This document shows, in pieces, positions 19,161-60,582 of a DNA stretch of 64,000 bases. The position numbers were made by a program, and so were the translations under genes. Below the pieces are notes generated by a model. It was not told the origin of the DNA and searched no databases. It worked only from the letters and a program-made list of their open reading frames with translations. Source of the DNA: Riemerella columbina (GTDB taxonomy: Bacteria; Bacteroidota; Bacteroidia; Flavobacteriales; Weeksellaceae); the NCBI RefSeq assembly GCF_030517065.1, contig NZ_CP103950.1:1488001-1552000 (forward strand), read 5' to 3'. Each line of letters starts with the position of its first letter. The first letter of the stretch is position 1.

Positions 19161-22100
19161 TTAATTGAGAAAAATTTGATACTTGTGATAACTATTCAGC
19201 ATCCTTAGCAAGTCTCCGCTGATTTCTATATTGGTTTTTAAACTCCGAAGTTCTAATATCTTATTATCCTTAGGGTTTTTAAGATAAAACGAGAGCGTTT
19301 GTTCGCCTTTGTGGGAGAGTAAATCGTTTTGGAAAAAGACCAAATCTTCCTTTTTGATTTCCGTAATGTCTACCACCACAGAGAGTGATTTTGCAAACTT
19401 AGAGAACACATCTTTAATATTAATCACCTCATTTACATTAACATAGATCATTGGAGCACCATCTTTGGATCTGGAAAGGCTATATTTTATTTTGAATACG
19501 ACAAAACGATGGATTTCCAAGTATTCCCTTAGCCGCATATAATCTCTATCCCTCAAACGGAAACTATAAGAACCACTATAGTCCTCCAAAGTGACGAATG
19601 CTATCTTGTCGCCACTGTTGTAGCCATCTCGAACGGTGTATTCCGTGATGAGCCCTGCCACCACATATTCTGGTGCGGTATCATTTAACGCTTTTAAATT
19701 TTTCCACCTTGTGGTTTCATCTCCGATAAGTCGTTGCACATCAACATGAGAAAACACTCTGTCCTTATACGCATCTACATCATCCAAGTATAAAAATTTG
19801 AATTTCCCCTTGGGCTCTATATTTCGTTTGGGTTTTTCTTCCTCTATCTCGGTTTCTTCTATACTGATTTCCATACTCAAATCAGCATCAGTATCAGCAT
19901 CTTCTTCTGGCATCAGTATTTGTGTTCCTAATTCTATAGTTTCTAAGCTATCCTCCACTTTTAGTTGCTCTACCACTTCTTTTCGGCTCAGATTTCCTTG
20001 GATAAAATCAAACTGAAACTTATACTCATCCAACGGATGCGCCGAGAGATAGAAGCCGATAATCTCTTTCTCCTTGTTGAGTTTATGCATATTCTGCCAC
20101 TCTGGCGATGGTAAAATTTTAGGCTGTTCTATCTTAATTTCATCTGCAAAATCCGCGAAAAGGGAGTGCTCTACTTGATTTTTACTATCTTGGAAACTTT
20201 GTCCATATTTAAGCAACCGCTCGATGTTGGTTTTACCAGAAGCATCGTCAAAATATTGGGCTCTGTGGTAGGTGTCCAACTCATCAAAAGCCCCTGCCAC
20301 CACCAAACTCTCTATCACTCTTTTGTTCAGTTGAGAGGCTGGCACACGCTCAAAGAAGTCGTAAATGTTTTTAAATTTTCCATTTTCTCGCTCCTTGCTA
20401 ATCGCCTCACTTGGTCCCTCGCCGATGCCCTTGATCGCACCTAATCCAAAACGAATTTGCCCCTTATCATTTACCGAGAATTTATACTGGCTTTCGTTCA
20501 CATCAGGCCCTAAAACATCTACCCCCATCGCGCGGCAATCCTCCATAAACATCGTAATCTGTGCCGTGTTGTTGATGTTGTTACTCATCACACTCGCCAT
20601 ATATTCGGCAGGATAGTTGGCTTTTAAATATGCCGTTTGGTAGGCAATTAGCGCATAACAAGTGGAGTGCGATTTGTTAAAAGCATACTCTGCAAATGCC
20701 TTCCAGTCGTTCCAAATTTTGTTGAGTTTTTCCTCATTAAGGTTGTTTTTCTTGCCGCCTTCTATAAATTTAGGGTACATTTTGTTGAGGACATCTATTT
20801 GCTTTTTCCCCATCGCTTTTCTCAGCGTATCTGCCTCGCCCTTAGTAAAGTTTGCCAATTTCTGAGAAAGGAGCATCACCTGCTCTTGGTACACGGTAAT
20901 GCCGTAGGTTTCTTTAAGGTATTCCTCGGTTTCTGGGAGGTCATAGATGATTTCCTCAACGCCGTGTTTACGGTTAATAAAGTTCGGTATGTACTTAATA
21001 GGTCCTGGGCGGTAGAGGGCGTTCATCGCAATTAAATCCGCAAATACGGTGGGTTTAAGCTCGCGCATATATTTCTGCATCCCTGGGCTTTCATATTGGA
21101 AAATCCCAATGGTGCGACCTTCTTTAAAGAGTTGATAAGTTTTGGCATCATCCAGCGTAATTTCATCAGGGTTGATGTCTATGCCGTGCCGTGCCTTCAC
21201 CAGTTTAATAGCATCTTTAATAATGGTTAGCGTTCTCAGCCCTAAGAAGTCCATTTTTAGGAGCCCTGCACTCTCTGCCACCGAGTTGTCAAACTGCGAC
21301 ACGAGGATATCGGCATCTTTCGCCGCGATGGAAATAGGCACCAAATTGGAAATATCTTCTGGCGTAATAATCACCCCACACGCGTGAATGCCCGTGTTTC
21401 TGATGCAGCCCTCCATTTTCTTGGCAGAATCTAACACAGCATAGCGTTCATCATCAGGGTTAGACAGTACCGCCTTCATCTCATCTACCAACATTTTGTC
21501 TTCTTCCTTCAGTTTATCGTACTTAGAAAGGGCTTTGGCGATGTTCATCCCTGGTACTCCAGGTACCAATTTGGCGATATTGTTGGTTTCAGGAATCGGT
21601 AATTCCAACACGCGCCCTGCATCTTTAATCGCTGATTTTCCGCCCAATACGGAATAAGTGATAATCTGCGCCACATTGGTTTTTCCGTATTTATCAATCA
21701 CCCATTTGATGATTTTATCACGACCTTCATCATCAAAGTCAATATCAATATCGGGCATAGAGATACGCTCTGGATTGAGGAAACGCTCAAAAAGCAAATC
21801 GTACGCTATGGGGTCTACATTGGTAATTCCGATGCAATACGCCACCGCAGAACCCGCCGCAGAACCACGCCCAGGTCCCACCCAAACGCCCATTTTTCGG
21901 GCTTCGTTACAAAAATCTTGAACGATGAGGAAGTAGCCTGGATAGCCTGTATTAGCGATAATTTCAAGCTCAAAATCAAGGCGTTCACGGATTTCATCGG
22001 TAATGGTTTCGTAGCGGCGTTTGGCACCCTCGTAGGTCAAATGTCTCAGGTAAGCGTTTTCGCCTCTCTTGCCGCCATCTTGGGCATCTTCCGCTGATTG

Positions 22101-23828
22101 AAATTCTTCAGGAATATCAAATTTAGGCAATAAAACTTCGCGTTTTAGAGGGTAATTTTCAAATTTAGCCAACAAATCAGAATAAGCCTCAAAGGCATCT
22201 GGATATTGGAGGAAAGTGGTTTTCAGCTCTTCGGCATCTTTAATATAATATTCTTGCGAACCCAAGCCTCTACGTTTGCCAAAGCCTTTACCAATAGGCG
22301 TTGAAAGCTTTTCTCCATCTTTAATACAGCTCACAATATCTTGAATCTGAGCATCGGATTTTTGGGTATAGAAAGTTTCATTTTGGGCTAAGATTTTTGT
22401 GCCATATTTATCCGCCAAAGCCACCAAAACTTCGTTTAAATGCTCCTCTTCTTGCAGGCTATGGTTTTGGATTTGCACATAAAAATCATCACCAAAAGTT
22501 TGATGCCACCACTGGAAGCGCTCCTCCCCTTTTTGCTCTCCAAAGTTGAGTATCGCATCTGGAATATCGCCATAAATTCCCGAGGATACGGCAATCAGCC
22601 CTTCTTTATATTGGGCTACCATCTCGCGAGAAATCCGAGGCACACCAAAATAAAACCCATTAACAAAGCCTAAACTGGAGAGTTTTGCTAAATTTTTGTA
22701 CCCTGTAAAATTTTTCGCCAGAAGCACCATCTGCGTTCTTCTATCGGGGTCGTCTTTGGTAAATTGCTTTTGTTCAGGGCGGTCGGAGATGTAAAACTCA
22801 CAGCCCAAAACAGCGGTCAGCTCCTGTTCCTGAGGCGGTGTTTCCGTAAATTCTTGACCTTGCGCCTCTGCCTCATTTTTTCTATTTTGGTAATCTTGAT
22901 GAAGTTTTTTAATGCCAGAATTGTGTTTTTCCACCTCTGCCACAAATTTAAAAGCGCCCATCATATTGCCTAAATCCACCATTCCTACGGCTGGGAAGGC
23001 GTTATCCTTGGCTTTTTGTATCAAATCTGAAATGGAGGTGGTAGACTGCAACGAGGAATAAATGCTATGGTTATGAAAATTGAAATATTTCCCTAAATCA
23101 ACCTCACTAACTTCACCAAAATCTGTTTTTTTATTGCTTTTATTAAAACTTTCTACCTGCCTTCTAATCACAATCGCAAACGGGCGAATAGGCTCTGGGT
23201 GGGTTTGCTGGTAATGTTTTAGCTGTTCATCAGAAATCCGCAAAACCTCGGCTGGAATAATGCCAATCCGCATCATCTCAAAGAAGACTTGCGCCGTGGC
23301 ATTCACATCGGCAGCGGCATTGTGGGCTTCATCAAATTTATGCCCATAAAGTTTTTCGTAAAGTTCTTCCAATTTTGGCGACTTGTACCGACCGTTTTTT
23401 CCGCCACCCAACTGGCAATAGTCGGTTCCTAAAATCATCGTATCTGCCGACGGCTTTTGCTCTAAGGCATTGGGCATTCCTTTCCTCAAAAACTCTGCCC
23501 CCACAATGTTGTAATCAAACACGATGTTGTGCCCTGCCACTACCTTGGTTTTCTCCAACACTTGAGCAAACTCCTCCAAAACCTCTTGCAAATCTCGCCC
23601 TTGCTCCATCGCGATTTTTGTGGTAATCCCGTGGATTCTGGCAGCGTTAAAGGGAATATCATAGCCTTCGGGCTTTATTATATAGTCTTGATTTTCAACT
23701 AAGTTCCCCTCATCATCGTGCAACTGCCATGCTATTTGCACCATCCTTGGCCAATTGTCTGAGTCTGAGAGTGGTGCGTTAAAATTCTTGGGTAAACCTG
23801 TGGTTTCGGTGTCAAAAATAAGATACAT
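19161..23828 (-). CDS. dnaE: DNA polymerase III alpha subunit with N-terminal DnaQ-type exonuclease
   Basis: The replicative polymerase, 1555 residues. Residues 1-190 are a DEDDh 3'-5' exonuclease (FDTETTGLP, HGITT, GHNIVFD, HNAAADV), so proofreading is built in. The PHP domain follows (NFHNHSIYSS near 250) but the usual TDHG metal-ligand motif reads VDLG, suggesting that the PHP metal site is degenerate. The palm aspartates are in PDIDIDFDDEGRD (near 690), with GPGRGSAAGS shortly before and YQEQVM and NKSHSTCYA later. The C-terminal part has an OB-fold. Fusion of the exonuclease to alpha means that a separate DnaQ is less critical. It precedes, by 115 bp, the NlpC/P60 gene. Confidence 0.97.
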   Translation of the reverse strand: MYLIFDTETTGLPKNFNAPLSDSDNWPRMVQIAWQLHDDEGNLVENQDYIIKPEGYDIPFNAARIHGITTKIAMEQGRDLQEVLEEFAQVLEKTKVVAGHNIVFDYNIVGAEFLRKGMPNALEQKPSADTMILGTDYCQLGGGKNGRYKSPKLEELYEKLYGHKFDEAHNAAADVNATAQVFFEMMRIGIIPAEVLRISDEQLKHYQQTHPEPIRPFAIVIRRQVESFNKSNKKTDFGEVSEVDLGKYFNFHNHSIYSSLQSTTSISDLIQKAKDNAFPAVGMVDLGNMMGAFKFVAEVEKHNSGIKKLHQDYQNRKNEAEAQGQEFTETPPQEQELTAVLGCEFYISDRPEQKQFTKDDPDRRTQMVLLAKNFTGYKNLAKLSSLGFVNGFYFGVPRISREMVAQYKEGLIAVSSGIYGDIPDAILNFGEQKGEERFQWWHQTFGDDFYVQIQNHSLQEEEHLNEVLVALADKYGTKILAQNETFYTQKSDAQIQDIVSCIKDGEKLSTPIGKGFGKRRGLGSQEYYIKDAEELKTTFLQYPDAFEAYSDLLAKFENYPLKREVLLPKFDIPEEFQSAEDAQDGGKRGENAYLRHLTYEGAKRRYETITDEIRERLDFELEIIANTGYPGYFLIVQDFCNEARKMGVWVGPGRGSAAGSAVAYCIGITNVDPIAYDLLFERFLNPERISMPDIDIDFDDEGRDKIIKWVIDKYGKTNVAQIITYSVLGGKSAIKDAGRVLELPIPETNNIAKLVPGVPGMNIAKALSKYDKLKEEDKMLVDEMKAVLSNPDDERYAVLDSAKKMEGCIRNTGIHACGVIITPEDISNLVPISIAAKDADILVSQFDNSVAESAGLLKMDFLGLRTLTIIKDAIKLVKARHGIDINPDEITLDDAKTYQLFKEGRTIGIFQYESPGMQKYMRELKPTVFADLIAMNALYRPGPIKYIPNFINRKHGVEEIIYDLPETEEYLKETYGITVYQEQVMLLSQKLANFTKGEADTLRKAMGKKQIDVLNKMYPKFIEGGKKNNLNEEKLNKIWNDWKAFAEYAFNKSHSTCYALIAYQTAYLKANYPAEYMASVMSNNINNTAQITMFMEDCRAMGVDVLGPDVNESQYKFSVNDKGQIRFGLGAIKGIGEGPSEAISKERENGKFKNIYDFFERVPASQLNKRVIESLVVAGAFDELDTYHRAQYFDDASGKTNIERLLKYGQSFQDSKNQVEHSLFADFADEIKIEQPKILPSPEWQNMHKLNKEKEIIGFYLSAHPLDEYKFQFDFIQGNLSRKEVVEQLKVEDSLETIELGTQILMPEEDADTDADLSMEISIEETEIEEEKPKRNIEPKGKFKFLYLDDVDAYKDRVFSHVDVQRLIGDETTRWKNLKALNDTAPEYVVAGLITEYTVRDGYNSGDKIAFVTLEDYSGSYSFRLRDRDYMRLREYLEIHRFVVFKIKYSLSRSKDGAPMIYVNVNEVINIKDVFSKFAKSLSVVVDITEIKKEDLVFFQNDLLSHKGEQTLSFYLKNPKDNKILELRSLKTNIEISGDLLRMLNSYHKYQIFLN

Positions 23829-23990
23829 AATACTGAAATTAGGACTTCAAAAATAGTGATTTTTTTTGAGATTAAGGCTGCCTTTTGCCCAGCGTTTTGC
23901 TTCAATTTTGGACAATGAATGCTTAAATTCTGATTACAAAAGACTTAGATTTTTTTCTAAAAAGAAAGGGGGATTTAGAATATATAAAAA

Positions 23991-24016
23991 CAAAAACCGC
24001 CCTATTTAAAGGCGGC
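23991..24016 (-). terminator. Terminator downstream of tRNA-Arg
   Basis: On the minus strand a GC-rich 5-bp stem (24011-24015 with 23997-24001) with a 9-nt loop is followed by TTTTTGTTTTT. It lies 4 bp after the tRNA 3' end. Confidence 0.85.
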
Positions 24017-24019
24017 TTG

Positions 24020-24091
24020 TAGCCCTATGAGGAATCGAACCTCAACCTAAAGAACCGGAATCTTTAATTCTATCCATTAAACTATAGGGCC
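24020..24091 (-). tRNA. tRNA-Arg (anticodon CCG)
   Basis: A 72-nt cloverleaf on the minus strand. The 7-bp acceptor stem has a G-U first pair, the anticodon loop reads TTCCGGT with a 5-bp stem, and the T arm is TGAGG/CCTCA around TTCGATT. The discriminator base is A and CCA is not encoded. The anticodon CCG reads the arginine codon CGG. Confidence 0.95.
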
Positions 24092-45950: not shown

Positions 45951-45994
45951 AGCATTCATTTTTAATATTGATTTTATTTCCTCAAAAAAAAGAT

Positions 45995-46002
45995 TATATT
46001 TG
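45995..46002 (+). promoter_or_regulatory. -7 box of the cobalamin-riboswitch transcript
   Basis: TATATTTG lies directly before the riboswitch, placing transcription start near 46008 at the riboswitch's 5' edge. Confidence 0.65.
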
Positions 46003-46007
46003 CAAAA

Positions 46008-46200
46008 CTTTGGTTTTAGATTGAAACCTTCTAAATGAAAAGGGAATGGAGTGCAAACCTCCAGCTGTCCCCGCAACTGTAAATCATCAACGCTGGCGTC
46101 ACCGTGCATCAGACTTGTTTTTTGCTGATACGCCATTGCTCTATCAGGAGTGAGAAGGCAGTAAAAAAGATGAAAGCCAGGAGACCTGCCAGAGCCTTAA
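46008..46200 (+). ncRNA. Cobalamin (adenosylcobalamin) riboswitch
   Basis: The conserved core is unmistakable: GGGAATGGAGTGCAAACCTC at 46042-46061, followed by the CTGTCCCCGCAACTGTAAA box at 46065-46083, and downstream the AGCCAGGAGACCTGCC receptor segment at 46175-46190. It lies between the divergent MerR gene and btuB. Its position about 42 bp before the btuB ATG, with the GGAGG element at 46222-46226 close to the start, is compatible with translational control: cobalamin binding would hide the ribosome-binding region. Both btuB and the following lipoprotein should be repressed by vitamin B12. Confidence 0.96.
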
Positions 46201-46241
46201 TGTTAATATTAAAAAACTTTCGGAGGAAAAGGCTTTTAAGT

Positions 46242-48062
46242 ATGAAGAAATTTATCCGCATCATCAGTTTAATTCTGATTTATCCATTAAGCGCCCAAGA
46301 GCAAACCACCAATATAGACACGGTGGCGATTCGCATTCTTGCGCCACAAAGCACCGCCATAGGGCATCAAGTTATCAAAATAAAGCCTAAAAATTCTGCC
46401 GTATTCCTCTCCGAAGCTTTACAAAAAGCGGCTGGCGTAGCGGTGAGAGATTATGGCTTTGGGCAGTTGAGTTCTATCTCCGTTAAAGGGCTTTCTGCGT
46501 CTCAAAATTTATTCCTTTGGGAAGGTATTCCGTTGAATTCCAGCCTGAATGGACAGGTAGATGCCAATATCATTTCGCCTTATACCACCAATACGATGAC
46601 TTACCGTAGTGGCGCTGGGAGTAGCCATTTTGGCAGTGGTGCTCTGGGTGGCGTTTTCTCTATGGACTATCAACCCCTATGGCAGCCACACACACAAATT
46701 ACGATGAACCAAGGTATCGGCAGTTTTGGGCTGAGCCGCCACGGCATACAGGTAGAGCACGGCAATCAGCAATGGAGCATCAGCGCTGGCACGCACTACC
46801 TACGCTCCAATAACGAATTTGATTTTGAAGACACTTGGGGCAAAAAATACCGCACCGAAGATGCTGGTTTTGATATTGTGGATCTGTACCTCAATACCGC
46901 ATACGCCCTCAATGCCAAGCACCAACTTACTTTTAACCTTTGGAACCAATGGGCGGATAGAAATGTAGGCGCCACCGAGGCTCGCCCCAAAGCGGAGCAA
47001 CGGCAATATGACCAAAACCAACGCTATCAACTCTCGTGGCTCTACCGCCACCAAGCGTTTAAGCACCAATTGCAATCTGCCTATACTTCGGAGTTTTTTG
47101 ATTTTAGGCTCTCGCCGCAATCGCCGCAGTCTATCAGTTTTGCTGAAAATTATTTCCTAAACTATTACGCCGAATGGCAACGCCAAAATTTCGGATTGAA
47201 GGCAGGGCTACAATCACGACTGACCACAGGCGGTGGCGATAACCTCAGCACAGAGCCTTTGCGGGAACTTCACTCGTTTCTGAACTACCAACAGCGTTTA
47301 GGCGCTTTGAGCATCAGTGCGAATTTAAGAGGTTCGTTTTCTTCAAAATTTACAATACCGCTGACCTATGATGTTGGAGCACAGTGGCATTTTAACCCCA
47401 AATGGAGCGCCCGTGCATCGTATGCGACTTCCTACCGAACGCCTACTTTTAACGATTTGTATTGGAAACAAGGCGGTAACCCTCAACTGAAACCTGAGCA
47501 AGGCAAAATGGGAGAAATCGGCATCGTAGCCAATCTGGCGAAAGCCTTTCAGCTGGACCTTTCTGCTTACTACGGCGAGGTTAAAGATTGGATTTTATGG
47601 TATCCTAACGCTTTAGGCTTTTGGACACCCACCAATTTAGATTTTGTTACCACCCAAGGCGGCACTTTGCGAAGCCTCCACTCCTTCCAATGGGGGGCAA
47701 TGAAAATCAACTTTAGTAATACCGTAGCCTATACCGATACGCACAATCAAAGGACTGGGCACCCTCTACTCTACACTCCAAAATGGAATTATAACAATAG
47801 CTTAAGCCTCAAAAGAAAGCACCTCGCGCTGGAGGTGACGCATTTCTATACCAGCAAGAGATCCACCGACAATAATGGTTCTTATTTTTTGCCAGCTTAC
47901 CACCTTTGGAATACCAACTTGAGCCACACTGCCGCTTTAGGGCGAATGCGCTATACACTAAGTTTGAGCGTGAAGAATTTATTGAACCAACATTATAACA
48001 CAATGCAGGGCTATCCTATGCCAGGCAGACAGTATTTACTTAACTTAACAACTATTTTTTAA
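46242..48062 (+). CDS. btuB: BtuB-type TonB-dependent cobalamin receptor
   Basis: An outer-membrane transporter of 606 residues, signal peptide MKKFIRIISLILIYPLSAQ. The plug begins with IKIKPKNSAVFLSEALQKAA and has SSISVKGLSASQNLFLWEG and GSSHFGSGALGGVFSMDY. The barrel ends in MPGRQYLLNLTTIF. There is no N-terminal carboxypeptidase-like domain, unlike the receptor at 33-36 kb. The start is the ATG at 46242, with GGAGGAAAAGG just upstream, not the more distant frame opening at 46104, which would lie within the riboswitch. The B12 riboswitch directly upstream gives the substrate. The next gene, a propeller lipoprotein, follows by 11 bp. Confidence 0.93.
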   Translation: MKKFIRIISLILIYPLSAQEQTTNIDTVAIRILAPQSTAIGHQVIKIKPKNSAVFLSEALQKAAGVAVRDYGFGQLSSISVKGLSASQNLFLWEGIPLNSSLNGQVDANIISPYTTNTMTYRSGAGSSHFGSGALGGVFSMDYQPLWQPHTQITMNQGIGSFGLSRHGIQVEHGNQQWSISAGTHYLRSNNEFDFEDTWGKKYRTEDAGFDIVDLYLNTAYALNAKHQLTFNLWNQWADRNVGATEARPKAEQRQYDQNQRYQLSWLYRHQAFKHQLQSAYTSEFFDFRLSPQSPQSISFAENYFLNYYAEWQRQNFGLKAGLQSRLTTGGGDNLSTEPLRELHSFLNYQQRLGALSISANLRGSFSSKFTIPLTYDVGAQWHFNPKWSARASYATSYRTPTFNDLYWKQGGNPQLKPEQGKMGEIGIVANLAKAFQLDLSAYYGEVKDWILWYPNALGFWTPTNLDFVTTQGGTLRSLHSFQWGAMKINFSNTVAYTDTHNQRTGHPLLYTPKWNYNNSLSLKRKHLALEVTHFYTSKRSTDNNGSYFLPAYHLWNTNLSHTAALGRMRYTLSLSVKNLLNQHYNTMQGYPMPGRQYLLNLTTIF

Positions 48063-54380: not shown

Positions 54381-54554
54381 CTACTTTTTCACTTTTTTAG
54401 AGTTTTCAAGCATTATTTCATATTCCTCTTTACTCATTTTGGCAGGGTCTTTTTCCTCAACTTTGATGGATTTTGCTTTGAATTTCTTCAATAATGCCTC
54501 CAACAAAGGAATGTCCTTTGTATTGACTTCGGCTTGTATAATGGCTGTGCTCAT
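54381..54554 (-). CDS. Candidate antitoxin of a decayed YoeB-type pair
   Basis: A 57-residue protein beginning MSTAIIQAEVNTKDIPLLEA and rich in lysine and glutamate toward the end (KMSKEEYEIMLENSKKVKK). An N-terminal amphipathic strand followed by helices resembles short antitoxins of the DUF2683 type paired with Txe/YoeB toxins. The gene is short but has an intact frame, a good -7 box with a 13-bp leader, and lies upstream of the remains of a YoeB-type toxin in the order antitoxin-toxin. It is intact while its toxin is broken, so it may survive as an orphan. Assignment as antitoxin is inference from size, pattern and neighbour. Confidence 0.65.
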   Translation of the reverse strand: MSTAIIQAEVNTKDIPLLEALLKKFKAKSIKVEEKDPAKMSKEEYEIMLENSKKVKK

Positions 54555-54575: not shown

Positions 54576-54683
54576 TAATTTTTTGAAGTTCCACTTCTAT
54601 ATTTCAATCAAAAAATTAGACTTTTTTCTGATTTTGAATTGAGCCCTCCCGCTTTCATAAATGATATTTATCATTGTTTATTA

Positions 54684-54715
54684 TTTGTAAACATTCTAAA
54701 TTAAAACTAACTTTG
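54684..54715 (+). promoter_or_regulatory. Promoter of the ankyrin-DUF2271-PepSY-ApbE operon
   Basis: TTTG at 54684-54687 and TAACTTTG at 54708-54715 are separated by 20 bp, a full Bacteroidota -33/-7 pair. Transcription would start near 54721, giving a leader of about 235 nt. Confidence 0.65.
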
Positions 54716-54954: not shown

Positions 54955-56439
54955 ATGAAAAAATACATCATCCTCAGCCTTGGGCTTAGCGTGAATGCCC
55001 TACTGGCGCAAAATACTCTTTTAGAGAAAAACTTCTGGCAAAATCGTCCCAATGTGGCGGTCGTAAAAGCGGAAATTGCGAAAGGCAACAGCCCATCAGC
55101 GGCTAATCCAGCTAACTTTGATGTGGTTACCCAAGCGATTATGCAAGATGCCCCTCAAGAGGTGGTGCTCTATCTACTCCAACAACCGGGAAATACCGTG
55201 GATAAGCTTACACACGACAGCCGAATCTACCTCCATTGGGCAGCTTATAGAGGAAATTTGGATTTGGTAAAATGGCTTTTGGAACACCAGTCGGACATCA
55301 ATCATATGGACAGCAAGGGCTATACGCCTTTGGTTTTTGGGGCTAACTCGGGGTTGAAAAATCCTGCGCTTTATGATTTATTTTTTCAATATGGCGTGCC
55401 GCTTCACCAAAAATATAAAGATGGTGCCGAGATTTTTCACTATGCCATCGCGAATGATGATGCCAACCTCACTTTAACAAAATACTTCCTCGGCAAGGGC
55501 TTCCAGCTGAATGCCAAAGATGATTTAGGGCGCACCGTGGTAGATTATGCCGCAAGAAGTCAAGACCCTGAATTGCTGAAAAAACTCATCCCCCAAGGGG
55601 GAATATACACTGATGAAATCCTCCTCTTTGCTGCCAAAGGCACTAAAAACGGCGCGGAGGCACAGCCTGTATTTGATTACCTAATCCAAGATCTTAAAAT
55701 TTCGCCTAAAACGGTGGATCATGAGGGCAACAACCTACTTCATTTCCTACTATCAGGGCGAAATATGAATGAAACGCTTGCCGCAGAATTCATCAAACAA
55801 GGCATCAGCGCTGAACAAGCCAACCACGAAGGCGTTACGCCACTGATGAAAGCCGCCCAACGCAATAAAAAAGCGCTCGTAGAATTGATGGTTCAGCAAG
55901 GGCTTAAAAACATCAATGCTGTGGATAAAAAAGGACTCTCCGCCCTAAGTTATGCTATGCAGAGGGCAAGTCCAGAAATGGTGGAATACCTGATTAGCCA
56001 AGGGGCAGATGCTCAAATTAAAGACCGAAAAGGCAACAGTCTCGTGTTCTATGCCCTCAATTCTTACAGCGATAGAAATAAAAATGCCGTATCGGATATT
56101 TTGAAAAAATTAGAATTATTGAAGCAAAAAGGCATCGTGATAACACAAGCTCAACCTGATGGCAACACCTTAGCTCATCTTGCTGTTAATCAGCATAGTG
56201 TGGCGCTTTTAGAGGCTTTAAAACCTTATTTTACCGACATCAATGCTCAAAATGAGGAAGGTCTTACCCCGCTCCACCTCGCCGCGATGCAGTCTAAAGA
56301 TATGCAACTTATTGAAGCCCTACTCCGCTTAGGTGCTGATAAAAACATCAAAACTTCTTTAGATGAAACCGCCTATGATTTGGCAAAAGACAACGAAATT
56401 TTAGGTCAAAAATTAACAGAAACAGCAATTTTAAAATAA
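54955..56439 (+). CDS. Exported ankyrin-repeat protein
   Basis: A 494-residue exported protein with a signal peptide (MKKYIILSLGLSVNALLAQ) and about twelve ankyrin repeats covering almost the whole mature chain. Clear units include LHWAAYRGNLDLVKWLLEH, HEGVTPLMKAAQRNKKALVE and NEEGLTPLHLAAMQSKDMQL. Ankyrin repeats mediate protein binding. In some bacteria exported ankyrin proteins stabilise periplasmic redox enzymes. Here it is the first gene of an operon with the DUF2271, PepSY/flavodoxin/reductase and ApbE genes, so it may act as a scaffold for that system. It starts at the ATG at 54955, 32 bp after the structured element. Confidence 0.9.
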   Translation: MKKYIILSLGLSVNALLAQNTLLEKNFWQNRPNVAVVKAEIAKGNSPSAANPANFDVVTQAIMQDAPQEVVLYLLQQPGNTVDKLTHDSRIYLHWAAYRGNLDLVKWLLEHQSDINHMDSKGYTPLVFGANSGLKNPALYDLFFQYGVPLHQKYKDGAEIFHYAIANDDANLTLTKYFLGKGFQLNAKDDLGRTVVDYAARSQDPELLKKLIPQGGIYTDEILLFAAKGTKNGAEAQPVFDYLIQDLKISPKTVDHEGNNLLHFLLSGRNMNETLAAEFIKQGISAEQANHEGVTPLMKAAQRNKKALVELMVQQGLKNINAVDKKGLSALSYAMQRASPEMVEYLISQGADAQIKDRKGNSLVFYALNSYSDRNKNAVSDILKKLELLKQKGIVITQAQPDGNTLAHLAVNQHSVALLEALKPYFTDINAQNEEGLTPLHLAAMQSKDMQLIEALLRLGADKNIKTSLDETAYDLAKDNEILGQKLTETAILK

Positions 56440-56446
56440 TACAACA

Positions 56447-56923
56447 ATGAAATTATTAAAACCGATCTTCATATTAGGTAGTCTCCTAACCGCAGCGGTG
56501 AGCTTTGCTCAAACCTCCACTTACAAATGTATGCTTCAGCTGAAAAACTACAAAGGCGAAGGGGCTTATGTGGTGGCTTCCCTCTTAGATGATAAAGGGA
56601 AATATGTGAAAACCTTAGCCGTAATGGGCGATGACGACCAATGGTACAAAACCGTGAAAGAGTGGCATAAATTCCAAAAAGTGAAAAAAGAGAAGTTAGA
56701 TGCCATCACGGGGGCTTCCATTTCGCCAGGGAGTAGAGCTGCCAAAGTGTTCAAAATTGAAGACCAACTCCTCAACAAAGGCTATAAAATAAGATTTGAA
56801 ACCGCTGTGGAAGATGAGCCTTATTATAAAGACGACATTGAAATTCCGCTCAGCACTTCAGAAATTACCCAAAAATACGAGGGCAAGGGCTACATTCGGT
56901 TTGTGAAACTCAACAAAGTATAA
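56447..56923 (+). CDS. DUF2271 exported protein with candidate FMN-attachment site
   Basis: A 158-residue exported protein of the DUF2271 family, signal peptide MKLLKPIFILGSLLTAAVSF. The middle has VKTLAVMGDDDQWYKTVKEW and then DAITGASISPG at residues 85-95. This matches the D-x-x-(S/T)-G-A-(S/T) motif at which ApbE links FMN to a threonine or serine, with Ser91 as the candidate residue. The encoded ApbE is two genes downstream and a flavodoxin-reductase-like membrane protein lies between them. It would be a covalent FMN carrier in the periplasm. The gene is 7 bp after the ankyrin gene and 15 bp before the PepSY gene. The flavin linkage is inference. Confidence 0.85.
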   Translation: MKLLKPIFILGSLLTAAVSFAQTSTYKCMLQLKNYKGEGAYVVASLLDDKGKYVKTLAVMGDDDQWYKTVKEWHKFQKVKKEKLDAITGASISPGSRAAKVFKIEDQLLNKGYKIRFETAVEDEPYYKDDIEIPLSTSEITQKYEGKGYIRFVKLNKV

Positions 56924-56938
56924 TATAGATTATCGTTT

Positions 56939-59110
56939 ATGCAGACCTCGCTGTGGCGCTCTATCCATGGGATTTTAGCGTGCTTAGTTTCTCTGTTTTT
57001 AATTATCGCCTCCGTTACAGGAGGCATTTTGGCGTTTAATCAATTCTGGGAATCTACCCATACACCGCACCGTATTGGGCAAGAAACGCTCTCGGAATTA
57101 GTACCCAAAATTCAAAATCAACTTTCCGAAATTTCGGAATTAGAGGTGGTTCATCAGCAAATCATCGTTAAAGGTTTTGATGATGAAATGAACGAAGTAA
57201 CCGCCGTGGTAGAGCCTTCCACAGGGCAATTGATGGGCGCTCCTACCTCACCTCCAGAATGGATCAAAACCGTGACCACGCTCCACCGCTCGCTGTTCCT
57301 CCACGAAATGGGTAGAAGCATTGTTGGTGGCGTGTCCGTTTTATTTCTTTTTTCCTTGTTGAGTGGCTTCATCTTGCTGTACATCAGGCAAGGGCACCGC
57401 TGGCTCTCCAATTCCGAAATGCGTAACAAAGCCGATTTTATCCACTTTTTGGGAGGAAAATGGTTCTCGCTACCGCTGATGATCATTGCCCTGACTGGAA
57501 GCATTTTATTTTTGTTCCGCTTAGGTTGGTTAGAAGAAAAAGAAACTCCCACCATTGCGCTATCTGCACAACACACGAAAAAAATTGACATTCAGGATTT
57601 TCCGATTTTTAAAAATACGCCTGTCAAAGAGGTTCAGAAATTAACTTTCCCTCTATTTGAAGATGAAGAAGAATTTTTTGAGCTAACCACCCTCACTCAA
57701 AAACTGAAAATCAACCAACAAACTGGTGATGTGGTTTCTCGGCAAGAATTCCCAGCAACGCACCATTTATCGTATTATAACAAAGCCATTCACACTGGCG
57801 AAATCCACTGGGCATGGGCGTTGGTTTTATTTTTATCCTCGTGGATCATCCTCTTGATGGTGGGCTCTGGCGTATGGCTTTGGCTCAATCGAAGACCACA
57901 ACATCTTAAAAATCAATACACTGCCGAAGAGGCTGAATACATCATTTTAGTCGGCTCCGAAGGCGGCACCACTTGGGCTTTTGCAGAAAAAATCTATCAA
58001 CAATTGCTCAACTTAAAACAAAAGGTGTTTTTAGCTTATCTTAATGATTTTCAAAGTTTTCCAAAAGCCAAATACCTTATCATTTTCACTTCTACCTATG
58101 GCGATGGTGATGCTCCTCATCACGCCGAAAAGGCTTTCAACTTAATTAAAAATACCGCTCAGCAATCACCGATACAATATACCGTTTTGGGCTTTGGCTC
58201 AAAGAGTTATCCTAATTTTTGTGGTTTCGCGAAAGATTTAGACCAATGTCTTGCAGAAATGCCGTGGGCGGAGCCTTTGTTGCCACTCCACACCGTGAAC
58301 GACCGCTCCTTGGAAGAAATAGCACAATGGGCAACCGCGTGGAACGAAAAACACCGCCTCCAACTGATGAGCAATCCGATGTATTACCACCTGAACATCG
58401 TGCCAACGGAGACTTTAACCGTTATCAACAAAAGCGATTTAGACACTGAAAATCAGACCTTTTCAATCGTTTTCAAAACCTCTTATCAGGATTTTTCATC
58501 TGGTGATATTTTAGCCATTTACCCTGAAAACAACGAAAAAGAACGCCTCTACTCTATCGGAAAAGTTGGTCAAGATTTGCATTTGATGGTCAAACTACAT
58601 CCTCACGGCTTGGGTTCTCAGTTTTTACACCAACTTACGGTTGGCACGCAGCTCAAAGGTAGAATTATTAAAAATCCTTATTTCCACCTGCCTGCCCAAG
58701 CTCCTGCTGTTCTGATGATTGCCAATGGCACGGGCATCGCACCTTTTTTGGGTATGATCCGCAACGCTACGCCTGTTAAAAAATACCTCTACGCAGGGTT
58801 TAGGCACCGCACAACAGCCACAATCAACATTGAAAAAGAGGCTTTAAATTTTGCACAACACCATCATATTCAAGAGGTTAAAACAGGATACTCGCAATCC
58901 GAAACGCCTCAATATGTTACAGATTTGGTGCGAGAAAATATAGCCACCGTGGCTTCCATTTTGAGAAATCAAGGCGTGGTGATGATTTGTGGTGCCTTAG
59001 CGATGCAAAAAGACGTGGAAGCGCTATTGGACACGCTATTACCTCATTATCAGCTCCATTCCGTGGCTTACTATAAAGAACAACATCAGATTTTAACCGA
59101 TTGTTATTAA
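56939..59110 (+). CDS. PepSY membrane protein fused to flavodoxin and NAD(P)H-reductase domains
   Basis: A 723-residue membrane flavoprotein. Residues 1-315 contain four transmembrane segments (about 10-32, 128-148, 175-196 and 292-315) with PepSY-type loops and several membrane histidines that could hold haem. Residues about 330-470 are a flavodoxin-like FMN domain (LVGSEGGTTWAFAEK and FTSTYGDGDAP). Residues about 485-723 are a ferredoxin-NADP reductase module: RLYSIG for FAD, ANGTGIAPFLGMI for NAD(P)H, and CGALAMQKDVEALL. This is the layout of sulfite-reductase/P450-reductase-type enzymes placed on a membrane base. It would carry electrons from NAD(P)H to the periplasmic side. It abuts apbE by one base. 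Confidence 0.9.
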   Translation: MQTSLWRSIHGILACLVSLFLIIASVTGGILAFNQFWESTHTPHRIGQETLSELVPKIQNQLSEISELEVVHQQIIVKGFDDEMNEVTAVVEPSTGQLMGAPTSPPEWIKTVTTLHRSLFLHEMGRSIVGGVSVLFLFSLLSGFILLYIRQGHRWLSNSEMRNKADFIHFLGGKWFSLPLMIIALTGSILFLFRLGWLEEKETPTIALSAQHTKKIDIQDFPIFKNTPVKEVQKLTFPLFEDEEEFFELTTLTQKLKINQQTGDVVSRQEFPATHHLSYYNKAIHTGEIHWAWALVLFLSSWIILLMVGSGVWLWLNRRPQHLKNQYTAEEAEYIILVGSEGGTTWAFAEKIYQQLLNLKQKVFLAYLNDFQSFPKAKYLIIFTSTYGDGDAPHHAEKAFNLIKNTAQQSPIQYTVLGFGSKSYPNFCGFAKDLDQCLAEMPWAEPLLPLHTVNDRSLEEIAQWATAWNEKHRLQLMSNPMYYHLNIVPTETLTVINKSDLDTENQTFSIVFKTSYQDFSSGDILAIYPENNEKERLYSIGKVGQDLHLMVKLHPHGLGSQFLHQLTVGTQLKGRIIKNPYFHLPAQAPAVLMIANGTGIAPFLGMIRNATPVKKYLYAGFRHRTTATINIEKEALNFAQHHHIQEVKTGYSQSETPQYVTDLVRENIATVASILRNQGVVMICGALAMQKDVEALLDTLLPHYQLHSVAYYKEQHQILTDCY

Positions 59111-59111
59111 A

Positions 59112-60092
59112 ATGAAACCGCTATTTCGCTTTAAATTAGGATTGATTTTAGCCTTATTTTTTCATACTTTTTTGCTCGCACAAGTGGCTCAGCATAGAGC
59201 GGTAACCCTTATGGGCAGCAGGTTTGACATCACCATTGTTGATAAAGATAGCCTTGCCGCCGAGCATAAAATAGACCTTGTCATTCAGGAAATTAGTCGG
59301 ATAGAAAACCTCATCTCCGAGTGGCAGCCACACACCATCATCTCCGAAGTGAACCGCAATGCTGGCATTCGCCCTGTGGTAGTGCCCCGCGAAGTTTTTG
59401 AACTGACCCAAAGGGCTTTATATTTTTCTAAAATAACCGATGGTGCGTTTGACATCAGCACGGCTTCTATGGACAAAATATGGCGTTTTGATGGATCTAT
59501 GCCAAGTTTGCCTCCTGAGGAAAGCATCAGAAAATCAGTACAATATGTGGATTATCGGAATATTATTTTAGATGAAACGAAGTCTACAATTTTCTTGAAA
59601 AAAAAGGGAATGAAAATTGGTTTTGGTGCGACAGGCAAAGGCTACGCCGCAGAAAAAGGCAAGGCGCTGATGCAATCTTTGGGCGTAAAAGCTGGCATCG
59701 TGAATGCTTCTGGCGATATGGCAGTATGGGGACTTTCGCCGAAAGGAAAGCCTTGGCGCATAGGCATTACCAACCCTTTTCGTCCGCAGCAAAGCATCAA
59801 AATTCTCTCGCTCCAAAATGAAGCCATCGTAACCTCTGGCGACTACGAAAAATATGTGATCTTAGGCGGTCGGCGCTATGCACACATCATCAATCCAAAA
59901 ACGGGTTATCCCTCCACAGGGCTCACAAGTGTGACCATTAAAGGCCCCAACGCTGAATTTGCCAATGGACTCAGCACTTCTATTATGGTTTTAGGACTCA
60001 AAAAAGGGAAAAAGCTGATGAAGCAATTTCCCGATTATCATTATTACATCATTACCGATAGTGGTCGCGTGGTACAATCTAAAGGCTTTTGA
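59112..60092 (+). CDS. apbE: FAD:protein FMN transferase
   Basis: Covalently attaches the FMN part of FAD to threonine or serine in exported proteins. The 326-residue protein has an N-terminal signal or anchor segment (LILALFFHTFLLAQ). Motifs are MGSRFDITI, the aspartate-rich SEWQPHTIISEVNRNAGI region, FDISTASMDKIWRF, GFGATGKGYAAEKGKAL, NASGDMAVWG and IVTSGDYEKYVILGGRRYAHI. The last is the typical ApbE signature with the metal-binding aspartate. It is the last gene of the four-gene operon, one base after the PepSY gene. Its 3' end overlaps the convergent nuclease gene by 14 bp. The likely substrate is the DUF2271 protein two genes upstream. Confidence 0.95.
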   Translation: MKPLFRFKLGLILALFFHTFLLAQVAQHRAVTLMGSRFDITIVDKDSLAAEHKIDLVIQEISRIENLISEWQPHTIISEVNRNAGIRPVVVPREVFELTQRALYFSKITDGAFDISTASMDKIWRFDGSMPSLPPEESIRKSVQYVDYRNIILDETKSTIFLKKKGMKIGFGATGKGYAAEKGKALMQSLGVKAGIVNASGDMAVWGLSPKGKPWRIGITNPFRPQQSIKILSLQNEAIVTSGDYEKYVILGGRRYAHIINPKTGYPSTGLTSVTIKGPNAEFANGLSTSIMVLGLKKGKKLMKQFPDYHYYIITDSGRVVQSKGF

Positions 60093-60582
60093 TTTTTTTC
60101 CTTTTTTGTTGGCGCCATTGTTCGGGGGCGATGGCATCTTCTGACCAAATGCCGATTTTCTTTTGTCGGGCTTCTTGCTCTAAACGGGTATAGGTAGGGT
60201 CTTTGGAATATTTTTTGAAATGCCACGCCAGCCCTTGCTTTACCAAAATTTGATTGAGAATGCGCCCATCGGGCAAGATAATTTCTGCAATGAGCCGACC
60301 ATAACGGTCTTTTTTCTGATGATGGCGGACTTGCACTTGCTTTCCAAAAGCTAAATCCGATGTAGCTTGCTTGGCTTTGGTGCCGAAAAGCTGCTTTTTT
60401 TCTGGGCAGTCTATATGCGCTAACCTCACGGTCATCGGCTTTCCGTCCACCAAAAGCTCAATGGTATCGCCATCTTTTACACCAATCACTTTATAATACA
60501 CCTTCTGTTGAGGATATGATACCACACTAAGGAATGCATTAGGTAAATAAAAATAAAGAAGTAAAAAAAGTAACGGTTTCAT
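60079..60582 (-). CDS. Exported staphylococcal-type thermonuclease
   Basis: A 167-residue protein of the SNase-like family. An N-terminal hydrophobic stretch (LLFLLLYFYLPNAFLSVVS) suggests export. The active-site residues are visible: the metal-binding aspartate in VKDGDTIELLVDG, the arginine in VRLAHIDCPEKK, the glutamate in FGTKAKQ-adjacent context, and DRYGRLIAEI with the second arginine and aspartate. C-terminal basic residues (RQQKRKKIKSL) may contact nucleic acid. It would degrade extracellular or periplasmic DNA/RNA. It is convergent with apbE, overlapping by 14 bp, and begins the leftward genes of this end of the window. Confidence 0.92.
   Translation of the reverse strand: MKPLLFLLLYFYLPNAFLSVVSYPQQKVYYKVIGVKDGDTIELLVDGKPMTVRLAHIDCPEKKQLFGTKAKQATSDLAFGKQVQVRHHQKKDRYGRLIAEIILPDGRILNQILVKQGLAWHFKKYSKDPTYTRLEQEARQKKIGIWSEDAIAPEQWRQQKRKKIKSL

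Follow-up and report, generated by a model that had tools for sequence, protein, structure and literature searches.

The window (the whole 64-kb stretch of DNA that was analysed) carries four plus-strand genes at positions 54955-60092. They raise the question of what an exported ankyrin-repeat protein does beside a transmembrane electron route, and of what that route reduces. The genes encode the ankyrin protein (ank), a DUF2271 protein, a PepSY_TM-flavodoxin-FNR protein and ApbE, and form one tight operon with intergenic gaps of 7, 15 and 1 nt (Table 1). Pfam domains were Ank_2 (E 8e-44) in ank and DUF2271 (7e-38) in the second protein, while one chain held PepSY_TM (8e-31), Flavodoxin_1 (2e-17) and NAD_binding_1 (2e-8). 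The N-termini of ank, DUF2271 and ApbE are signal-peptide-like segments with A-Q at their end. An earlier reading of this DNA (the original prediction) had proposed this four-gene operon and its coordinates, and both were borne out by the open reading frames and Pfam domains. DAITGAS was likewise confirmed at DUF2271 residues 85-91, as were the four hydrophobic spans joined to flavodoxin and NAD(P)H-reductase modules, the spans lying N-terminal to the flavodoxin domain of the 723-aa protein. An Rfam search gave no match near the operon. Just upstream, at 54381-54554 on the minus strand, is a small ORF of 57 aa (MSTAIIQAEVNTKDIPLLEALLKKFKAKSIKVEE...) with an antitoxin-like look. An exported staphylococcal-nuclease-like gene (60079-60582, minus strand) is convergent with apbE, and the ends of both genes overlap.

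Table 1. Features of the operon and its upstream region, in window coordinates
Feature	Position	Strand	Remarks
Fur-box-like site ATTTGTAAACATTCTAAAT	54683..54701	.	15/19 to R. anatipestifer box ATTTAGAATTATTCTAAAT
Predicted Bacteroidota promoter	54684..54715	+	TTTG 54684-54687, 20 nt, TAACTTTG 54708-54715 (fits TAnnTTTG)
Exported ankyrin-repeat protein	54955..56439	+	494 aa, one continuous solenoid, AlphaFold
Exported DUF2271 protein	56447..56923	+	158 aa, predicted ApbE substrate
DAITGAS motif	56699..56719	+	Residues 85-91; Ser91 = predicted FMN attachment site
PepSY_TM membrane protein with a fused cytosolic diflavin reductase (flavodoxin + FNR-like)	56939..59110	+	723 aa
Four invariant His, predicted two-haem ligands	56966..57793	+	146 sequences; FoxB 7ABW; H10 56966-56968, H116 57284-57286, H169 57443-57445, H285 57791-57793
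Flavodoxin domain	57944..58300	+	Residues 336-454, Pfam
FNR-like FAD/NAD(P)H domain	58421..59107	+	About residues 495-723; conserved GTGIAPF, C-terminal tyrosine
ApbE FAD:protein FMN transferase	59112..60092	+	326 aa, sole copy in genome

The view that the arrangement could not be assigned to a characterised pathway did not hold. Meheust et al. (2021, eLife; PMC8238504) described clusters of PepSY, DUF2271 and ApbE as 'PepSY-like flavinylation systems', and the main text of that paper proposes that they serve iron reduction under Fur control. The class is delimited there by a PepSY-like protein (PF03929/PF16357) in a flavinylation-associated cluster, and the window operon has a PepSY-like protein within such a cluster. 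PepSY_TM, DUF2271 and ApbE are clustered in both, and the NAD-binding domain (PF00175) that is fused to PepSY in a published subset is present in the window PepSY protein. As far as the main text describes these systems, the window operon differs in beginning with an exported ankyrin protein and in placing a flavodoxin domain between the PepSY and NAD-binding domains. DUF4198 occurs in 1500 of the 3220 clusters given in that text, and is frequent but not defining; of the 148 family genomes, 3 had a match above its cut-off, and it was absent from the window genome.

ApbE was matched by PF02424 above cut-off and at full length (272.9 bits, E 4e-81, residues 34-309), and aligned with TM1553 over most of its own length. 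One ApbE and one PepSY_TM protein were found in the 2.04-Mb single-contig genome, together with no FMN_bind and no NqrB/RnfD protein; DUF2271 is therefore, among the substrate classes searched, the only recognised one for this ApbE. A role of ApbE in serving Nqr/Rnf was ruled out, Nqr/Rnf being absent from the genome. The motif predicted to persist in orthologues beside apbE did so in its core: [S/T]GAS was kept in 135 of the 135 DUF2271 proteins whose fetched locus includes apbE (TGAS in the window). The leading Asp85 of D-x-x-T-G-A-S was not conserved and is often N or S. Among 16 loci without apbE, several of them cut by contig ends, 13 retained [S/T]GA[S/T] and three had lost the motif (SGET, VGET, VGET); genomes without a local apbE carry one elsewhere. 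Two of the three loci with a broken motif (L071, L116, L132) still adjoin ank and the PepSY reductase with no local apbE, and they are possibly systems working without covalent flavin. As such loci retain ank and PepSY next to a DUF2271 protein whose attachment motif is broken, covalent flavin would seem not to be indispensable everywhere. The DUF2271 fold gave no significant match when compared with the PDB (best E 0.012), and the Ser91 loop was the least ordered loop of its model. By analogy with the DUF2271 protein of A. ursilacus, which was shown to be flavinylated at this motif (main text of PMC8238504), the window protein is probably flavinylated at Ser91.

In the membrane half, H10, H116, H169 and H285 were invariant across 146 aligned homologues, while every other His in the first 330 residues was kept in at most 58% of them. 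FoxB (7ABW) was the sole PDB match of the membrane-domain profile, at a marginal E of 0.027, and in that marginal alignment all four invariant His stand opposite His of FoxB, which holds two haems by two such His each. The four His are predicted to bind two haems in the window protein as well; topology would place H10/H169 on the cytosolic side and H116/H285 on the periplasmic side. The siderophore reductases FoxB and HiuB (7ABW; PMC13001220) share with it the four spans, the four His as ligands of two haems, the periplasmic PepSY domains and, in relatives, TonB receptor neighbours. FoxB differs in having no fused reductase, and its sequence similarity to the window protein reaches only E 0.027. 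The closest solved relatives of the diflavin half were CPR, CysJ and NOS reductase, and the flavodoxin and FAD/NADP domains of the CysJ/CPR module are present. Unlike CPR and CysJ, the flavodoxin and FNR-like module of the window protein is fused to a PepSY membrane anchor, and it scores below the CysJ cut-off. The PepSY gene is broken over several frames in Flavobacterium davisii (L216) and F. covae (L219), as is ank in F. covae, which reflects either degeneration of the system or mistakes in the assemblies.

Read together, these parts suggest that the cytosolic FNR/flavodoxin half would oxidise NAD(P)H and pass electrons from NAD(P)H to FAD to FMN. The electrons would cross the inner membrane through the two haems, from the cytosolic to the periplasmic pair of His, and would reach the FMN that ApbE attaches to Ser91 of the exported DUF2271 protein. 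An electron path that starts at NAD(P)H, crosses the membrane and ends at an exported carrier with covalent flavin was what the original prediction had proposed, and it is supported by the anatomy, by conservation and by the DUF2271 biochemistry in the main text of PMC8238504.

The remaining component is the ankyrin protein. Its AlphaFold model was one continuous solenoid (pLDDT 93.3, pTM 0.85), and it represents an orthologous family with conserved caps and not a generic ankyrin. An identity as a Legionella Ank effector (NCBIfam) was rejected, the scores being far below cut-off and reflecting the repeat only. DUF2271 was found in 46 of the 148 family genomes and the ankyrin protein in 45; the latter was present in 45 of 46 DUF2271-positive genomes vs 0 of 102 others, the exception being a marginal DUF2271 match. 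Fisher's p of 2e-37 for this co-occurrence ignores relatedness and is descriptive, not a test of independent trials. ApbE was less closely tied (85 of 148 family genomes). Across Bacteroidota, ank lay directly before DUF2271 in 140 distinct loci from several families and orders. In a set of 395 genomes from the whole phylum, 33 fetched loci outside the family had a strong DUF2271 match, and ank adjoined it in 26. The seven exceptions were one second copy standing alone (L132), one locus at a contig edge (L133), one divergent match (L140) and four ORFs of about 500 aa from other Bacteroidota (L127, L129, L136, L139) that match both ApbE and DUF2271 as fusions and have no ankyrin gene.

The neighbourhood comparison called for by the original prediction was made on 80 named loci, chosen by DUF2271 similarity and not by ank, from Riemerella, Elizabethkingia, Chryseobacterium, Flavobacterium, Sphingobacterium, Pedobacter, Dyadobacter, Runella, Mucilaginibacter and others. 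The ankyrin gene directly preceded DUF2271 in 80 of 80, and ank, DUF2271, PepSY and ApbE stood in that order on one strand in 74; the arrangement is therefore far beyond chance. Gene content and order strongly support the assignment of the ankyrin protein to the flavinylation system. Alternatively, ank might be a passenger gene, co-transcribed yet functionally separate, such as one for an iron-stress protein. Against the 45/46 vs 0/102 co-occurrence and the adjacency in 140 loci of several families and orders, that explanation is most improbable.

Ankyrin solenoids are mostly protein binders, and the window protein would most likely act as an adaptor, either keeping DUF2271 and the reductase in contact or presenting the substrate. 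In Pseudomonas and Campylobacter, ankyrin proteins reportedly assist catalases, and a less probable though credible role is that of an assembly factor, not a scaffold, helping haem insertion into the PepSY protein or presentation of DUF2271 to ApbE. The strict pairing with DUF2271 and PepSY, even without apbE in the locus, would fit such a factor, as would the N-terminal part, which is among the most conserved of the protein and contains the invariant F27 W28 and T86 H87 Y92 W95. Protein binding as the usual role of these solenoids speaks against the assembly factor. Whichever of these its action is, we lean towards a reading in which PepSY flavinylation systems of Bacteroidota possess an exported ankyrin subunit that is obligate and has so far gone unrecognised. 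It would organise the electron path between the di-haem membrane reductase and the flavinylated DUF2271 carrier, or load the cofactors. The result would be an iron reductase of four components, unlike the DUF4198-type systems described in other phyla.

A full-text literature search for ankyrin together with DUF2271 returned no paper, and searches for ankyrin in iron-limited Flavobacterium or Elizabethkingia returned nothing relevant. Ankyrin is unmentioned in the main text of Meheust et al. (PMC8238504). Within the literature searched, the dedicated exported ankyrin protein that nearly always forms the first gene of such operons in Bacteroidota thus appears to be undescribed.

The output of the route was approached through the orthologous operon of Riemerella anatipestifer, in which a siderophore-type TonB receptor and a 447-aa protein precede ank, DUF2271, PepSY and ApbE. 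R. columbipharyngis carries the locus as well. The match of locus tags to the R. anatipestifer genes rests on order and annotation and not on sequence. In strain CH-1, RNA-seq under iron limitation showed B739_0173-0177 up by log2 3.31, 3.64, 2.41, 3.06 and 1.05; the genes are annotated as TonB receptor, hypothetical, Ankyrin, predicted periplasmic protein and 'Nitric oxide synthase' (PMC5429918). In a second RNA-seq study, on strain YM under iron restriction, RAYM_04481, 04491, 04496, 04501 and 04506 were up by log2 6.36, 5.24, 3.42, 2.80 and 1.84, with 04481 annotated as TonB receptor, 04501 as 'Nitric oxide synthase' and 04506 as ApbE (PMC5609570). Fur with Mn2+ binds the promoter of B739_0173, at the head of the operon, and represses it (PMC7976709). 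Induction of the operon by iron restriction nevertheless persists in a YM fur mutant (PMC5609570), in conflict with simple Fur repression in CH-1. The 447-aa protein (L142:5059-6402) is lipoprotein-like with no Pfam match; with its relatives it was found in 25 loci, near the operon in other genera too, and it is a candidate partner of the TonB receptor. No relative of it was found in the window genome and no TonB receptor at the window locus, so that regulation and substrate may differ in the window species.

Bacteroidota promoters follow the consensus TTTG / TAnnTTTG, and a similar layout to that predicted before ank precedes feoA in the window genome. De novo analysis of the regions upstream of ank genes returned enriched k-mers, ATTTAGAAT, and an extended 23-bp motif; this operator motif is the published R. 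anatipestifer Fur box, ATTTAGAATTATTCTAAAT (PMC5609570). A matrix trained on 25 sites, all outside Riemerella, scored highest in R. anatipestifer where the whole operon begins (19.7 bits, the runner-up having 7.2) and, in the feo locus of the window genome, directly before feoA (16.3 bits; next non-overlapping 5.2). In the 64-kb window the site at 54680-54702 ranked second with 15.7 bits. The top match, with 20.2 bits at 23972-23994 on the plus strand, is flanked by a DNA polymerase III alpha-like gene (19161-23828, minus strand) and a tRNA gene (24020-24091, minus strand); it may be due to chance, no iron gene directly following it. The Fur-like site before ank overlaps the -33 element TTTG and the spacer of the predicted promoter. 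Its match count alone is not significant, about one third of shuffles reaching 15/19 somewhere in 64 kb, and the putative Fur-box-like assignment rests on position and conservation. A Fur box of at least 16/19 was present before 62% of ank genes vs 7% of other upstream regions, a difference due partly to relatedness. The E. coli-type Fur consensus was not enriched before ank, and a palindrome resembling that consensus in the window (AAATGATATTTATCATT, 54659-54675) was set aside, as it lies upstream of the predicted promoter.

These data bear on the suggestion, made with the original prediction, that ferric reduction is the output; it is strongly supported by the iron and Fur regulation of the orthologous R. 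anatipestifer operon. The window operon probably encodes a Fur-controlled periplasmic reductase of ferric iron (or of a ferric chelate or siderophore), a Bacteroidota form of the PepSY-like flavinylation class with the ankyrin protein as fourth component. The flavoprotein, or the PepSY protein itself, would reduce Fe(III) to Fe(II), and FeoAB would import the product; FeoB is present in the window genome. The same machinery might instead serve another acceptor, Cu(II) or another metal or oxidant, in envelope repair or a respiratory step, the iron control then marking only an iron-sparing flavin route. Some PepSY_TM proteins, CrpH among them, support copper-dependent oxidases (PMC13038864), flavinylation serves many processes according to the main text of PMC8238504, and no TonB receptor adjoins the operon in the window species. 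This is unlikely, however, given that the orthologous operon is iron-induced and Fur-bound, that the same operator precedes feoAB, and that same-strand TonB receptors lie within 2.5 kb of 36 of 140 distinct loci (a raw count with no background rate), the receptor being of siderophore type in R. anatipestifer. Within the preferred reading as an iron reductase, the window operon more likely encodes a ferric-chelate reductase of general use than one dedicated to a single siderophore, because the genome lacks a relative of the 447-aa protein and the locus has no receptor.

A related locus, Caulobacter CCNA_03155-03159, also combines a PepSY protein, DUF2271 and a flavin reductase; it is a Fur target required under EDTA stress, and differs in having its own reductase gene and DUF4198, with ankyrin unmentioned (PMC12004947). 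Published results for orthologues support the iron role in large part, and those papers leave them unconnected to flavinylation. Older Riemerella iron and Fur transcriptome entries, 'Ankyrin', 'Nitric oxide synthase' and 'Thiamine biosynthesis protein ApbE', can be united as one system with testable chemistry. The operon becomes a direct candidate for the step in Bacteroidota that reduces the Fe(III) delivered by TonB receptors to the Fe(II) that FeoAB takes up. The system is of a known kind. What merits further study is its constant ankyrin component, which is here named, for many Bacteroidota, as a conserved element of a route that carries electrons through the membrane.

Elsewhere in the window, a cobalamin riboswitch (45994-46207, plus strand) stands before a gene resembling those of TonB-dependent receptors (about 46104-48062) and one for a lipoprotein-like protein of 353 aa, and this is probably a B12 uptake locus.
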